The notes: a model not told the origin generated them from the letters alone. DNA of 64,000 nt from Thermoproteus sp. (GCA_038893495.1 JAWARJ010000001.1:806001-870000), one strand, 5' to 3'; shown: positions 48,650 through 64,000, counted from the stretch's first letter. Translations and numbers: made by a program.

Positions 48650-48790
48650 TACGTACCCCCTTCCGCAACCTCCCGGGCGTGCCCTGGGGGCCAGGCCTCC
48701 AAGCGAAGCTTGGAGGGGAGCCGACGCCCGGGTCGTATCTGCCCGCCAGACCCGGCTCCCAGCCTGGCGAGCCTACTCGCGAAGGCTTCT
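48650..48790 (+). ncRNA. Candidate structured RNA with stacked three-way junction
   Basis: A GC-rich segment between divergent genes. Hairpin A: 48669-48677 with 48682-48690 (one U-G, one mismatch). Outer stem: 48690-48696 with 48762-48768 (7 bp). Inside it two stems abut with no linker: 48697-48704 with 48708-48715 (8 bp, GAA loop), and 48716-48722 with 48754-48760 (7 bp), which contains 48730-48734 with 48749-48753. A small hairpin 48770-48774/48783-48787 follows. So many perfectly nested long stems are unlikely by chance. A TATA-like tattaaaaaa (48619-48628) could start transcription near 48650. Not tRNA; I find no SRP or RNase P signature. The strand is presumed. Confidence 0.5.
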
Positions 48791-48930
48791 TGAACGTAAT
48801 TACTCAGACTTATTTGTTAATTTCGCTGAATCGTTCATCTCTCCTCACGCCCTCTCTTCTTTCTACATATCGAAAACCGAGAGGTCGCGAGACATACAGC
48901 GCAGAAGATCTCCCCGATGGAAGATCTAAG

Positions 48931-59173: not shown

Positions 59174-59421
59174 TTCCCACATCTCTCCAAGAGCATTACT
59201 GCGAGTCTCGCCACGGCCCCCGCATCGCCGTCGGTCTTGGCGAGCTCCTTTAACACGGCCTTTAACAGCTCGCCGTTGATCATGTCTAACACCTCGCGCG
59301 GGGCTTTTCCCAGCGACTTCAAGAACGAGAGGGCCCAATCGTTTGTAGCCTGGACGTCGATGTAGTCAGGCATCTCTATTGAGTCGGGCTCGTGTCCGTT
59401 TTCTTTAAGTTTGAGCTTCAT
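59170..59421 (-). CDS. Small helical protein of the pilus operon
   Basis: 83 residues, charged and helical (WALSFLKSLGKAPREVLDMI), with a clearly acidic N-terminal segment. Start overlaps the ATPase stop by 4 bp and its own stop overlaps the next ATG. No family recognised. Confidence 0.6.
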   Translation of the reverse strand: MKLKLKENGHEPDSIEMPDYIDVQATNDWALSFLKSLGKAPREVLDMINGELLKAVLKELAKTDGDAGAVARLAVMLLERCGK

Positions 59422-60536
59422 GGAATTATTTTCTGGTAGCCGTACCTAACGGCATCCTCAACTATTGAGACCTTCCTACGCGAAAACAGCTTCAATACAG
59501 CCTCCCGCGCTTCCAACGGCTCGAGCTCCCGCGAGGCCACTGCCTTCAATACGCCAACCCTCAGCTTTATTTCGTCCAGTACATCCTCGTCGTACACAGC
59601 GCTGGTGTATTCGTCGAGGACGTTCAAGACGTCGGCGATAGGCGCCTCGATCACCTGGCCGCCAGACGCCATGAGGGCCCTCCACTCCTTTAGGTACCTA
59701 GTCCCTCCCGAGACCCCCAACTGCAGTATTATTGTATTCGACAGCGCCTCGACAGGCGCACCCGATCGTTCTATACGCAGAAGCGCATCGTGTATAGTAT
59801 CGGCGTGCATAGTCGTGACGCCGCCGTGGCCCGTCAACTTGTAGGAGACTAGGGTGTTCAGCTCCTGCGCCGTCCTCGCCTCGGCCAGCGCGATTATTGT
59901 ATGCATAGTGCCGTACCTAAGCGCCTGGTCCAACGCCTCGTTGAGTTTCGACTCTGAAGGCACAGATATGTGGAGCACTTGGTTCTCCAGCGGGGCCCAT
60001 ATCTCTCTGGCCCCCCTCTCTATTACCACCACTTGCATCCAGGGCGGTATGAAGTACAGCAATAAGTTGAGCTGAGTGGTCTTGCCCGTCCCCATGGCCC
60101 CCGAGAACACCACGGTCCATCGGGCCTCGGCCGCTATGGTCGCCAAGGCAAATACCTCCAGGCCGGACACCCCGTCTGCTTCTATGCGCTTAGAGGCTTG
60201 TTGGGGCGGCTTCGGCGGCTCGTACAGCTTCAATAGGCTCCGCGAGGGGCGGGGCTGTTCGCTCATCTTCCTTATATTGACGTTGTATTCCAGGAGGTCG
60301 GCCGCTATACGTATCCTATATATCGAGTCCTCTCTGGTCTGGAACGGCTTTTCTAACGTCAAGCCAGGCACTAACTTCTTGACTAATATCGGGAGGAACG
60401 CCTCTGGGATCACTACGTTGGTGGGCAACCTCGCTTCGTTCCTCACGGCGACTACTCGACGGAAGCGGCTTAACTCTATCATCTCGGAGTATATCTTGTC
60501 GAGGAGCTCGACGGGACTTCTAGGCAGTTCGCTCAT
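59418..60536 (-). CDS. Type IV pilus/secretion ATPase (GspE/VirB11 family)
   Basis: 372 residues. Walker A GAMGTGKTTQ (about 146-155), Asp/Glu box near VVVIERGAREIW, His box TMHADTIHDAL. The N-terminal domain is shorter than in most archaeal homologues. Powers pilus assembly or retraction. First gene of the minus-strand run; a TATA (about 60557-60565) lies 25 nt upstream of ATG 60536. Confidence 0.88.
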   Translation of the reverse strand: MSELPRSPVELLDKIYSEMIELSRFRRVVAVRNEARLPTNVVIPEAFLPILVKKLVPGLTLEKPFQTREDSIYRIRIAADLLEYNVNIRKMSEQPRPSRSLLKLYEPPKPPQQASKRIEADGVSGLEVFALATIAAEARWTVVFSGAMGTGKTTQLNLLLYFIPPWMQVVVIERGAREIWAPLENQVLHISVPSESKLNEALDQALRYGTMHTIIALAEARTAQELNTLVSYKLTGHGGVTTMHADTIHDALLRIERSGAPVEALSNTIILQLGVSGGTRYLKEWRALMASGGQVIEAPIADVLNVLDEYTSAVYDEDVLDEIKLRVGVLKAVASRELEPLEAREAVLKLFSRRKVSIVEDAVRYGYQKIIP

Positions 60537-60556
60537 CTCGATTTTAACGTATAGCG

Positions 60557-60565
60557 TATATTACT
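60557..60565 (-). promoter_or_regulatory. Promoter of the pilus operon
   Basis: gtatattac on the plus strand reads gtaatatac on the minus strand, centred 25 nt before ATG 60536. It is presumably the main promoter of the ATPase-platform genes. Confidence 0.5.
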
Positions 60566-60805
60566 GATCAACCAACCGTAAAAATGTATAAACTGATCTT
60601 GACCTAATCTTTGTCTAACCGTCGCCGACGCCGATAAAAGCGAATTTTGCAACCTCCTTTTCGGCGTTGACCCAGCTCTTGACTTATTCTAGCCCGCCGA
60701 AAATTACTATATAGGCTTGAAAAGCGCACTTTACAAAGTTTTCGATTTGCCGATATATGTAAAGGCGGAGACGTCCGCGACAGATTCTACTAATCTATTA
60801 ACTAT

Positions 60806-60967
60806 ATGGACATGAACATACCGAAGGCCAAAGGGCTCGACGCGAGCCAGACCGGGAAACGCCGTAAAGACCTCGCCGAGTTGCTAGACGGAACCTCCGG
60901 AGAGCTGGGCGCCGTGGACAAAGACCTCTCGACGGAGTGGATTAGAGAAGACCGCGAGGGCCGTTAG
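60806..60967 (+). CDS. Small charged protein, antitoxin-like tail
   Basis: 53 residues. Lys/Asp/Glu-rich, with a C-terminal DLSTEWIREDREGR that resembles the acidic tails of some VapB/AbrB-type antitoxins. No toxin gene is adjacent, so this is only a resemblance. It uses CGC/CGT arginine codons where most genes in the window use AGG/AGA. No TATA lies at leaderless distance from ATG 60806. The flanking gaps 60537-60805 and 60968-61176 hold no other gene. Confidence 0.4.
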   Translation: MDMNIPKAKGLDASQTGKRRKDLAELLDGTSGELGAVDKDLSTEWIREDREGR

Positions 60968-61031
60968 GAGGTTGGGCCCCAGGCTCATCGCCGTTTTTCA
61001 CCCTTACCCGGATGTGGTACTTGCACTGTCT

Positions 61032-61056
61032 GTTTCAACTATCTTTTGATTTTCGG
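61032..61056 (-). repeat. Solitary CRISPR-repeat-like sequence
   Basis: 25 bp. Read on the minus strand it ends GATAGTTGAAAC, and its body (AATCAAAAGATAGTTGAAAC, positions 61032-61051) is identical to what I remember of the Pyrobaculum/Thermoproteus CRISPR repeat; the other end differs at two or three bases. The conserved GTTGAAAC that becomes the crRNA 5' tag is intact. No second perfect copy exists within the window. It lies 121 bp upstream of the ATPase/HD-nuclease operon. Confidence 0.65.
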
Positions 61057-61102
61057 CTCACCCGGGCGTCTCGGCTCCCTCCGTCCCCATTTATGTGTTG
61101 CT

Positions 61103-61118
61103 TTCGGCTTTTGCCGAA
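61103..61118 (+). repeat. Perfect hairpin upstream of the accessory operon
   Basis: TTCGGC TTTT GCCGAA: a six-base perfect inverted repeat with a four-T loop, 58 bp before ATG 61177. It may be an attenuator, processing site or repressor-binding site, and lies within a segment (61097-61121) that shares GTT.C...CTTTTG with the repeat upstream. Confidence 0.45.
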
Positions 61119-61160
61119 GTCCTCCGCGCACCTCTCCGCTGTTGGTTTAGCCTTTTGACT

Positions 61161-61166
61161 GGAGGT
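61161..61166 (+). promoter_or_regulatory. Strong Shine-Dalgarno site before ATG 61177
   Basis: GGAGGT, 10 nt before ATG 61177, one of very few strong ribosome sites in a window of mostly leaderless genes. A TATA-like ttataaa (61171-61177) would instead favour ATG 61198, so two start modes compete. Confidence 0.5.
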
Positions 61167-61176
61167 AACGTTATAA

Positions 61177-61953
61177 ATGCGTAAGGTAAAACTTGACATG
61201 AACGCCGAAAAGGACTTCAAGCCCGCCGCTGGGGACACGGCGGGCGGGGCCACTGGCCCCAGTTCTGTCCCCAAGTTGCCGTCGGAAAAAGAAATCCAAA
61301 TGGCGGCCATAAGGGTCTACATAAAGGGTTTGAAAGAGGGCAAGGTGTTGTGGAACTACGGCTATGCCGATAGTGGCGAATTTTTGACCGAGGTGTTGGA
61401 AGAGCTGGGTCTCGCGAAAGGAGAGGGAGAGGAGAGCGAGGAGTTGCGGGAGACTAGGAATTTCGTCGATGAGTATCTGTACAGTTTCCTGTACGACCAC
61501 GGTATCCTCGTAAACGCCGCAGATGCCGACGGCGCCGCGGCGTATTTCGTGATACCTCCGCAATACGAAGAGATCAAGGAAGACGACTTCATAGAGGAGC
61601 TAGTAGACATGGCTTACGACGACGTAGAAGCTGAAGATGCTTATAATAGAGTAATAGCGCACTACGTGGTGCGGCTCCTCAGCACGTCGTCAACTCGTTA
61701 CAGTCTCGCGTTCTGGGCGCTTGACCTAGCACGCGAGCACGACATCGAAGTAAAGAAGTTGTGCGGAGTGTGGAGCGACCTCCGCGGCGGACACGACGTC
61801 TACGAAATCGTCGGCACGGACGTCAAAATCGTAAAGATCTGGAGACCAGGCAACGGCTACTGGCACAAAGAAGCTGTGTTCATAGAAGAAAAAGATAAGT
61901 ATGCAGACATAATGCTTTGCACCGAGAGAGACGATGTGTACTACATGACATGA
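61177..61953 (+). CDS. Unknown protein, first gene of accessory operon
   Basis: 258 residues. Disordered Gly/Ala/Pro N-terminus to about 35, then a helical acidic region (FLTEVLEELGLAKGEGEE, VDEYLYSFLYDHGILV) and a C-terminal alpha/beta part with SDLRGGHDVYEIVGTDV and WHKEAVFIEE. No motif recognised. ATG 61177 has an SD site; ATG 61198 in the same frame fits a leaderless mRNA. The stop overlaps the ATPase ATG (ATGA). It could be a specificity subunit of the system; that is inference. Confidence 0.7.
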   Translation: MRKVKLDMNAEKDFKPAAGDTAGGATGPSSVPKLPSEKEIQMAAIRVYIKGLKEGKVLWNYGYADSGEFLTEVLEELGLAKGEGEESEELRETRNFVDEYLYSFLYDHGILVNAADADGAAAYFVIPPQYEEIKEDDFIEELVDMAYDDVEAEDAYNRVIAHYVVRLLSTSSTRYSLAFWALDLAREHDIEVKKLCGVWSDLRGGHDVYEIVGTDVKIVKIWRPGNGYWHKEAVFIEEKDKYADIMLCTERDDVYYMT

Positions 61954-62978
61954 TCGTCCGCATCCGCGACGTAGAGCTCGGCGGTGAGTTGTTGGCCCGC
62001 TCTGTTGTGTTGCGCGAAAGCGTCAGGGGGACTGTCGACGGGTTGGTGCCCATGCCTGGCCTGAACGTAGTGGCGGGGAGGACTGGCTCCGGGAAGACCC
62101 TCTTGGCGGAGTCGCTCTGGCTCGGCACAGCGTGGTCTCTGGCAAAATTAACGGGAGACGAAATGCTCGTGACGAGACTTGTGGGGAGCACCGCCGTGAG
62201 GCCCCTCTCGTTGACGTATGAAGTCGCGTTCGACGAGGGCGAAGTGCCTGGCGGCGGGTACGTAAAGGTAAGAGTGGAAGACGGCTTGCTCGAATCCTTT
62301 GAGCACAAGGGAGACGCCAAGGCGCTGACGTACGCCCTGTCGCATATAATAGCGGTTCCCTCGACGCTTAGGGCGTCCCTCTTCACGCCTGACGTAATCG
62401 ACGTGTTCTACGAGTTGACCGAGAAGAGAGAGGATTGCCAACACCTAATCGCGGTGTTGCCCCCGATCAGGCTGGAATACAACGGGGAACACGTCCCGTG
62501 CCACGAGCCCGAGACTATCAAGAGACCGTTTACGCTCAAGTCCGCAATAGTGCCCGGAAGGCTGGAGAGGTTCTACGTCGCCGAGAGTAGTGGCGAGGTG
62601 GACGTCCGGCTGTTGCGCATATACCGCGACGCCTTGAGGGAGTTGAAACTCGACGCTAAGAGGTACGGCGTTTCGGTCGTTCCGCTCCTCTACTTCGACG
62701 ACGCGTTCAACAACCTCCACTCTGGCGCCATGAGGGATCTCGCCGAGTTCAACACGCCCGACTGGTCGCTTTACGTCGCGACCCACAGGCTCGACGTCGG
62801 TGTCGCCACGAGCAAGACGTTCTACCTGACCTACGGCTTGCCGATATCAACACAACTGGACGCGCCTTGCGAGTTCCGCTTCGGCTTGGTGGACGCCGAA
62901 CTGTTGGACAGAGAGACCGCCGTGAGGGTCTGTAAGGAGGTCGTGGCGCCAGACGAGTCCCTGTGCGCCCAGCTATGA
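61950..62978 (+). CDS. ABC/SMC-like ATPase of accessory operon
   Basis: 342 residues from ATG 61950. Walker A GRTGSGKT (about 43-50), Walker B VPLLYFDDA (about 244-252) with Asp in place of the usual catalytic Glu, and a switch-His-like VATHR (about 276-280). No clear ABC signature and no coiled-coil arms: a compact RecF/OLD-like single-domain ATPase. Not a helicase, so it cannot replace Cas3'. ATGA overlaps on both sides fix it in one operon with the HD nuclease. Confidence 0.75.
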   Translation: MIVRIRDVELGGELLARSVVLRESVRGTVDGLVPMPGLNVVAGRTGSGKTLLAESLWLGTAWSLAKLTGDEMLVTRLVGSTAVRPLSLTYEVAFDEGEVPGGGYVKVRVEDGLLESFEHKGDAKALTYALSHIIAVPSTLRASLFTPDVIDVFYELTEKREDCQHLIAVLPPIRLEYNGEHVPCHEPETIKRPFTLKSAIVPGRLERFYVAESSGEVDVRLLRIYRDALRELKLDAKRYGVSVVPLLYFDDAFNNLHSGAMRDLAEFNTPDWSLYVATHRLDVGVATSKTFYLTYGLPISTQLDAPCEFRFGLVDAELLDRETAVRVCKEVVAPDESLCAQL

Positions 62979-63727
62979 CGTCGGCGGGCATATTGGCTTG
63001 GTGTGGCCGTGAGCTTAAGGAACACCTCGAAGGCGTGACGAAATTCGTGATGTTGGACGAAGAGTATTTGGCGGAAACGAGAGATAGAGTGAAAGCCGTG
63101 GTCGGCTTGGAGCTCGACGTGGAGTTGCTGAAGAGAGAGGTCTTGTCTACAGTGAACAGAATCAAGGCGCTCGTCGGCGCGGATTTGCCAGACAAGTTCG
63201 TCGCCTACACGGCCTACCTCCACGACGTGGGGAAGGCCATACAAGAATATCAGAAGAGATTCAAGACGGCGAAGAGAGGGTGTAGGGTCTCCCTTGTCGG
63301 CCACGAGTTCTGGTCGTCGTATGTCGCGTACTACGCTTTACGCGGTCTGTTCGACGAGCAACTGGCCACAGACGGCGCGGCCGCCGTGGCCTTGCACCAC
63401 TCGGCAAGACGGAGCTTCGACGACGTGATATACGACGCGCTTAGGGTCGAGCCGACCCTAGACGATTTGAGTTTGATGTTCCAACTGGCGGAAGAGGGTC
63501 TTCGCGTAGTTGGGTTGCAACCTGATAGCGAGTTTAGACGCTCCGTGGCCGTTGGGGAGTACGCATACAAGGCGTTCTACGGTCTAGCAAGAGTGAGAGA
63601 GAGGTTGTTGTTCTCCAGGCCCGCCGTCGTTGAGCTGTTGACGTATCTAATAGCTCTCGCAGACAACCTCGACTACGCCCTAAGCAATATGGACGTCACC
63701 GCGCTCAAGCCGTTCTTGCGACCATGA
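62975..63727 (+). CDS. Cas3''-like HD nuclease
   Basis: 250 residues from ATG 62975. AYLHDVGKAIQEYQ (H83, D84), VGHEFWSSYVAYY (H110), ALHHSARR (H141, H142) and a late Asp in ALADNLD (about 230): the ligand order and spacing of the HD domain of CRISPR Cas3'' (metal-dependent ssDNA nuclease). No helicase is fused or adjacent. Residues 1-75 form an unassigned helical lead. ATGA overlaps with the ATPase and with the next gene. Confidence 0.8.
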   Translation: MTSAGILAWCGRELKEHLEGVTKFVMLDEEYLAETRDRVKAVVGLELDVELLKREVLSTVNRIKALVGADLPDKFVAYTAYLHDVGKAIQEYQKRFKTAKRGCRVSLVGHEFWSSYVAYYALRGLFDEQLATDGAAAVALHHSARRSFDDVIYDALRVEPTLDDLSLMFQLAEEGLRVVGLQPDSEFRRSVAVGEYAYKAFYGLARVRERLLFSRPAVVELLTYLIALADNLDYALSNMDVTALKPFLRP

Positions 63728-64000
63728 CCTTCGAGATCGGTGAAAGGGACAGTGTCTTCTACGTAACATTTTCACATGAGGGAAAGACGTACCTATACCT
63801 GATCGACTATAGGTATGTCCAGCCGATAAGGGCCCTCGTGGAGTTGGAGACCCCCGATAAGTTGGTTGTCTCGGGCGTCGATGTTGCGTTGAGGATAGCC
63901 AAAAAGATACTGTACGTCGGAGGCGGCGAGGTGGGTCTCACAGACGCGCTAGCAATGGTGTTAGAAGCCCTACTGAAGAGGAGTTGCGATGGGTATCTTA
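63724..64000 (+). CDS. Truncated unknown protein, fourth gene of accessory operon
   Basis: The first 92 codons run off the right edge without a stop. Beta-rich N-terminus (IGERDSVFYVTFSHEGKTY), then alpha/beta with ALVELETPDKLVVSG and a helix. No motif recognised; a further helicase, Cas8-, Cas5- or Cas7-type domain could lie beyond the edge. ATG overlaps the HD nuclease stop (ATGA). Confidence 0.6.
   Translation, partial: MTFEIGERDSVFYVTFSHEGKTYLYLIDYRYVQPIRALVELETPDKLVVSGVDVALRIAKKILYVGGGEVGLTDALAMVLEALLKRSCDGYL

Follow-up and report, generated by a model that had tools for sequence, protein, structure and literature searches.

The last genes of a 64,000-nucleotide stretch of Thermoproteus sp. 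DNA (hereafter the window, bases 806001-870000 of a host genome that is a single contig of 1,995,394 b) form an operon in which an ATPase is paired with a Cas3''-type nuclease. Cas3'' usually keeps company with a Cas3' helicase and Cascade. The question raised by this locus is what a Cas3'' is doing in the company of an ATPase and away from those partners. Positions are given in the window frame, except where they refer to other sequences; the right flank of the window was read as locus L004, whose positions are converted to the window frame by adding 59000.

The four-gene operon

Reading of the ORFs confirmed that four genes, here called P1 to P4, form a single operon on the plus strand. The perfect ATGA overlaps described in the initial annotation are exact at all three junctions. 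P1 (61177-61953) encodes an acidic protein of 258 aa with a pI of 4.6, P2 (61950-62978) an ABC/RecF-like ATPase of 342 aa, and P3 (62975-63727) a Cas3''-type HD nuclease, which is 250 aa long when counted from its ATG and 4 aa longer from an alternative GTG start at 62963. P4 (63724-64155, equivalent to L004 4724-5155, with 63724-64000 lying in the window) encodes 143 aa with a pI of 9.3. It had been described as a truncated partner; however, its ORF is complete in L004, ending at 64155, and only crosses the edge of the window, so P4 is not a truncated gene. The base composition of P1-P4 is host-like. A perfect hairpin, TTCGGC-TTTT-GCCGAA, is present at 61104-61119, between P1 and the lone CRISPR repeat described below, and could serve as an operator or terminator.

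No relatives of P1 were found in Pfam, curated models, PADLOC, solved-structure chains, genomes or viral contigs, and there was nothing convincing for P4 among profile, PADLOC and solved-structure matches; weak matches of P4 to ribosomal S9 were not accepted as real. The sequence of P4 suggests a probable C-terminal winged helix. A single-sequence AF2 model of P1 had a pLDDT of 50 and the AF2 model of P4 one of 44, both too poor for a fold search. Of the earlier view of P1 as acidic and unstructured, the acidity stands, while the lack of structure is not established, helices being predicted in the model. P1 and P4 showed no resemblance to the 403-aa protein of a related operon discussed below, nor did P1 to a 149-aa ORF of the same island. 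Viral contigs contained no relatives of any of the four proteins. The four-gene order, whose recurrence elsewhere had been proposed as a check, was found nowhere else in the genomes searched.

The absence of other cas genes from view, noted at the outset, holds after the contig is extended by about 15 kb to the right: no cas3', cas5, cas7 or cas8, which would have marked an ordinary type I-A locus, was seen among the ORFs of this flank, of which the unassigned ones were partly profile-scanned. Within the operon itself, neither a Cas7/Cas5 backbone nor a Cas8a large subunit gave a family match in Pfam, curated models or PADLOC.

The inserted island

The operon is located within an inserted island of 7,531 bp (60535-68065, equivalent to L004 1535-9065, with 60535-64000 lying in the window), which splits a pilus-ATPase gene. 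It is bounded by an exact 9-bp direct repeat, AGTTCGCTC (left copy 60526-60534, right copy 68066-68074, or L004 9066-9074), and similarity to the uninterrupted pilus-ATPase gene of other genomes of the genus breaks off at the two copies. The target gene is whole in two complete same-genus genomes, G016 (L055 14454-16055) and G015 (L056 14466-16097), as a single GspE/TadA-like ORF of 533-543 aa. Here it is in two pieces on the minus strand, the C-terminal piece at 59418-60536 and the N-terminal piece, comprising residues 1-156, at L004 8919-9554. Nucleotide alignment places the break at a single point, which in the G016 gene is base 465/466. The single break point, with AGTTCGCTC on both sides, therefore identifies an element of 7,531 bp with a 9-bp target duplication. 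The split pilus operon may be inactive or running on two half proteins.

The insertion itself demonstrates that the operon block was acquired, as had been suspected. The argument originally made for this, from the arginine codon use of a nearby 53-aa ORF, is rejected: the composition of P1-P4 is like that of the host, and the 53-aa ORF (60806-60967, plus strand) is probably a gene fragment, similar to the C terminus of a VapB-like antitoxin, and is not evidence of foreign codon use. Its DNA matches G000:1873158-1873243, within a 75-aa VapB-like gene adjoining a PIN-domain-like gene (both annotated by reading). A second VapB-like C-terminal fragment is found on the island at L004 6007-6097, and the two fragments match different toxin-antitoxin-like regions of the host genome.

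The other island genes are the 149-aa ORF and TnpB-like genes, one copy of which is broken. Apart from these TnpB-like genes, no integrase, DDE transposase or other transposase able to make a target duplication was recognised among the island ORFs. A repeat search identified a 163-nt inverted repeat (88%), whose left arm on the plus strand is at 60601-60763 (L004 1601-1763) and whose right arm is at L004 8666-8828, 66 bp and 237 bp respectively inside the island ends; neither arm matched elsewhere in the host genome. Three positions in G002 (1125036, 418246 and 435949) are partly similar to the inverted repeat, twice shortly upstream of related genes encoding about 450 aa. We also note a 165-bp sequence at the right end of the island (L004 8831-8995), which is 77% similar to an intergenic sequence on the minus strand at 48715-48881, 12 kb to the left of the island. 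Searches of phages and plasmids gave no match to the island DNA.

The Cas3'' nuclease

P3 scores 54 bits against the TIGR01596 cas3_HD model (cut-off 43 bits), matches the PADLOC model Cas3a2 at 4e-33, and finds the solved type I-A Cas3-HD structures 7tra/7tr8 at about 1e-7 using phmmer. The HD..K, HE and HH motifs are invariant in an alignment with five other Cas3'' proteins, and by these motifs P3 is a catalytically intact Cas3'' of the type I-A kind. These matches, together with the Walker and switch motifs of P2, bear out the original assignment of an ATPase and a Cas3''-type HD nuclease to one operon.

The Cas3a2 model identified 18 loci in 19 Thermoproteaceae genomes, of which three are cut by contig ends and were left out. 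In 14 of the 15 informative loci, cas3' lies directly upstream of cas3''. The sole exception is the island operon, in which the ATPase P2 occupies this place.

In a phylogenetic tree, P3 pairs with a cas3'' remnant from its own genome (61% identity) at a fork supported at 94/94. This branch is joined by the Cas3'' of G008 (JAJHRB01, Thermoproteaceae MAG Bin S10) at 96/96 and by PAE0067 of P. aerophilum at 98/98, the latter identified by comparing its gene order and the coordinates of its array with PMC3396285. The P3 branch is thus supported and is separate from the canonical I-A Cas3''; its other members are located in cas loci, and two of them, the host remnant and PAE0067, both lie beside arrays of the same family as the lone repeat. 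Between P3 and the chromosomal remnant, dN is 0.30 and dS 1.11, values that include a pseudogene lineage and a dS near saturation, and which point to past purifying selection.

The ATPase and its relative in G008

In Pfam, P2 matches AAA_25 (2.5e-4) and AAA_23 (3.9e-3) at levels that do not reach the cut-offs. Its Walker A (GRTGSGKT), Walker B (YxDDAF) and switch (ATHRL) motifs are common to P2 and the sole relative found, an ATPase of G008, with which it shares 38% over the alignment. At the place of the LSGGQ-like signature, the alignment as read by eye has ESSGE in P2 and ISRGE in the G008 protein. G008 was the only one of 398 genomes of the phylum to contain a relative, and a pattern scan of the GTDB species reached, using just two conserved peptides, found none beyond it.

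The G008 contigs encode Csa3; Cas11-like, Cas7a, Cas5a and ATPase; and then ATPase, a 403-aa protein, Cas3' and Cas3''. This order was obtained by joining contigs C106 (L012) and C85 (L011) via an overlap inside the ATPase gene; the copy number of the ATPase is uncertain, because a second contig, C103, ends in nearly the same sequence. C103 (L013) has a CRISPR array that leads straight into a cas5 lacking its 5' end, and the ATPase gene comes next. The G008 contigs that were read contain no array of the Pyrobaculum-type repeat family. The 403-aa protein occupies the position of the large subunit (Cas8), yet matches no Cas8 model; a 90-aa ORF of P. aerophilum preserves its C-terminal part. Judging by its extra ATPase after cas5 and its 403-aa protein, the G008 operon is possibly an undescribed I-A variant. 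It provides the first context for a P2-type ATPase, within a Cascade gene cluster.

Canonical thermoproteal I-A operons have a small ABC ATPase of their own, of the OLD/AAA_21-like kind, which is conserved near cas3''/cas8 in 7 of the 15 informative loci (L064 7712-8671 and L034 4858-5754, and also L079, L081, L082, L083 and L088). The one from a canonical I-A locus is similar, in PADLOC, to several ATPases of known defence systems. Like P2, these OLD-like proteins are small, of ABC type and encoded near cas3''; however, they are encoded downstream of cas3'', whereas P2 is in the helicase position. A profile comparison aligned only the P-loop, with a probability of 15%, and we do not regard the two as the same family.

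A lone CRISPR repeat upstream of the operon

A single CRISPR repeat, CCGAAAATCAAAAGATAGTTGAAAC, is found at 61032-61056, in the intergenic region 120 bp upstream of the operon, with its crRNA sense on the minus strand. It agrees at 23 of 25 nt with the Pyrobaculum repeat, which has the form CCAGAA-ATC-AAAA-GAT-A-GTTGAAAC and an 8-nt handle, GTTGAAAC (PMC3396285, Table 1). Both changes are in the 5' motif, leaving the ATC-AAAA-GAT-A core, the palindrome and the handle intact. A genome search for the 20-nt core TTTCAACTATCTTTTGATTT, allowing at most one mismatch, gave 25 copies: 24 in the host's second CRISPR array, at 1.2766-1.2782 Mb, and one at 61033-61052. About 1e-6 copies would be expected from base composition. 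The Rfam model CRISPR-DR26 covers all 25 positions of the lone repeat (E 0.0013; 36.9 bits, below the gathering threshold of 39) and is the sole Rfam match on the island at E <= 0.1.

A search of 60851-61177 gave no further copy, and the locus has this one repeat in place of an array with spacers. The spacer-like sequence beside the repeat gave no match among the viral sequences searched and nothing notable in the own-genome loci compared, and the 23 spacers of the host array have no convincing match on the island. Two matches of the 20-nt core in viral contigs, both in AT-rich phage contigs (30-32% GC), were taken as chance.

When a mobile element carries a solitary repeat unit, this can function as an RNA anti-CRISPR; such units tend to be near acr genes and are often without associated cas genes (PMC10651486). 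The island repeat shares with them its isolation, its intergenic position, its setting on a mobile element and its match to a host array, as judged by the core search, the Rfam match and the mapped insertion; unlike them, it adjoins Cas-derived genes. A working unit would be expected to give rise to an RNA that resembles a crRNA, has GUUGAAAC as its 5' handle and starts within 60985-61040 on the minus strand.

CRISPR-Cas elsewhere in the host genome

The host has an apparently complete canonical I-A operon near 1.30 Mb, which encodes a separate Cas3' and Cas3'' and is accompanied by a repeat different from the lone repeat. Its Cas8-like gene was assigned by position and has no Pfam match, and its Cas3'' is 27% identical to P3. 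The genome encodes one PF01905 Cas7, which is within this locus, and none of the P3 branch, which suggests that the island Cas3'' lacks a cognate Cascade in this genome.

The 24-repeat array is preceded by Cmr-like genes and has a cas6-like gene beside it (both by reading). Next to the array, a csa3 remnant abuts the cas3'' remnant (L005 10361-11235), which is cut off on its 5' side at this junction, apparently by a deletion that removed the intervening genes. It follows that the host's own locus of the P3 branch has decayed.

Discussion

P3 is like the type I-A Cas3'' (7tr8/7tra; T. tenax Cas3'', PMC4005679) in its HD family, in all its catalytic motifs and in being a stand-alone HD polypeptide. 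The island differs from type I-A in that it has no Cas3' helicase, Cas7, Cas5, Csa5 or Cas8, has P1 and P4 as other partners, and is mobile in location. With no helicase, backbone, large subunit or array, the operon is by its features not a type I-A system, and if it works at all it would do so with a type I-A nuclease. The G008 operon has the same ATPase family and the same Cas3'' branch, with the ATPase upstream of cas3'' as on the island, but it also has Csa3, Cas11-like, Cas7, Cas5, the 403-aa protein and Cas3', none of which the island has. The P. aerophilum locus by CRISPR1 (PAE0067/PAE0068, cas3''/cas3) shares with the island its Cas3'' branch, its repeat family and the absence of cas7/cas5; unlike the island, it still has Cas3' as well as cas6, adaptation genes and an array next to it. 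The P. aerophilum genome yielded no P2-type ATPase. A view of the operon as unrelated to CRISPR loci is not supported, given the repeat upstream, the nearest relatives of P3, which are in cas loci, and the only relative found for the ATPase, which is in a cas operon: on these sequence relationships, P2 and P3 are of CRISPR ancestry.

We regard the CRISPR ancestry and mobility of the operon as very likely, and a present function of some kind as probable. Our preferred reading, to which we give an even chance of being correct, is that the operon is a mobile, reduced I-A-like derivative acting as an ATP-controlled (gated) nuclease module. The 7.5-kb island carrying it as cargo would be mobile, or have been so in the past. 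It would have retained the Cas3'' nuclease, one CRISPR repeat and an ABC-type ATPase, the relative of which is encoded after cas5 and before a large-subunit-like gene. The Cas3' helicase and the large subunit, like Cas5 and Cas7, would have been lost or never taken, and P1 and P4 gained. P2 would bind and hydrolyse ATP and so gate or load the P3 nuclease, which would degrade DNA, with P1 as an acidic partner or inhibitor and P4 as a DNA-binding autoregulator. We have also considered a self-contained effector of Cas3'' and ABC ATPase, guide-less or guided by the single repeat, in which the ATPase takes the role of Cas3' and the target is other elements or the host CRISPR. The lone repeat would then be an RNA anti-CRISPR or a single-guide precursor. 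As a whole we consider this proposal doubtful.

The P3 branch has already decayed at the host array, leaving csa3 and cas3'' remnants; the P. aerophilum locus has decayed too, with cas7/cas5 missing and the 403-aa gene down to 90 aa; and the island carries gene fragments, namely the antitoxin-like pieces and the broken TnpB-like copy. The operon might accordingly be without present function, a fragment of an I-A-like CRISPR locus in decay that was caught up in the island as it formed. We consider this unlikely, given four intact and tightly overlapping ORFs, intact motifs, and the seamless joining of the unrelated P1 and P4 to P2 and P3. An ATPase and nuclease without guide machinery would also suit a stand-alone, non-guided defence, with the ATPase for sensing or gating, Cas3'' for the destruction of DNA, and P1 to confer specificity or restrain the toxin; compact ABC ATPases are indeed common in known defence systems. 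However, every relative of P2 or P3 that was traced belongs to a CRISPR locus, the operon has a cognate repeat upstream of it, and the four-gene order does not recur, which makes such a system improbable.

The repeat itself could indicate counter-defence, acting as an RNA anti-CRISPR that titrates the Cas6/Cas proteins of the host, while the Cas3''/ATPase pair, together with the acidic P1 and a P4 that is HTH-like, would make up an acr-aca-like operon of the mobile element. Its resemblance to the published solitary units and the cas6-like gene beside the matching host array are consistent with this, but a decoy nuclease could drop catalytic residues, all of which P3 retains; published solitary repeats are often apart from cas genes; and a leftover array repeat would account for the lone repeat equally well. 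We find counter-defence distinctly unlikely. We consider it very unlikely that Cas3'' and the ATPase are trans-acting helpers of the resident canonical I-A Cascade or of crRNAs from the second array: the host does have both that operon and 24 cognate repeats, but the operon already has its own helicase and a nuclease only distantly similar to P3, and a Cas7 of the P3 branch is absent from the genome.

A mobile operon with an ABC ATPase in the helicase's place and a cognate repeat is a testable case of CRISPR parts recruited by mobile elements, the outcome of which would be either a minimal nuclease effector or an anti-CRISPR module.
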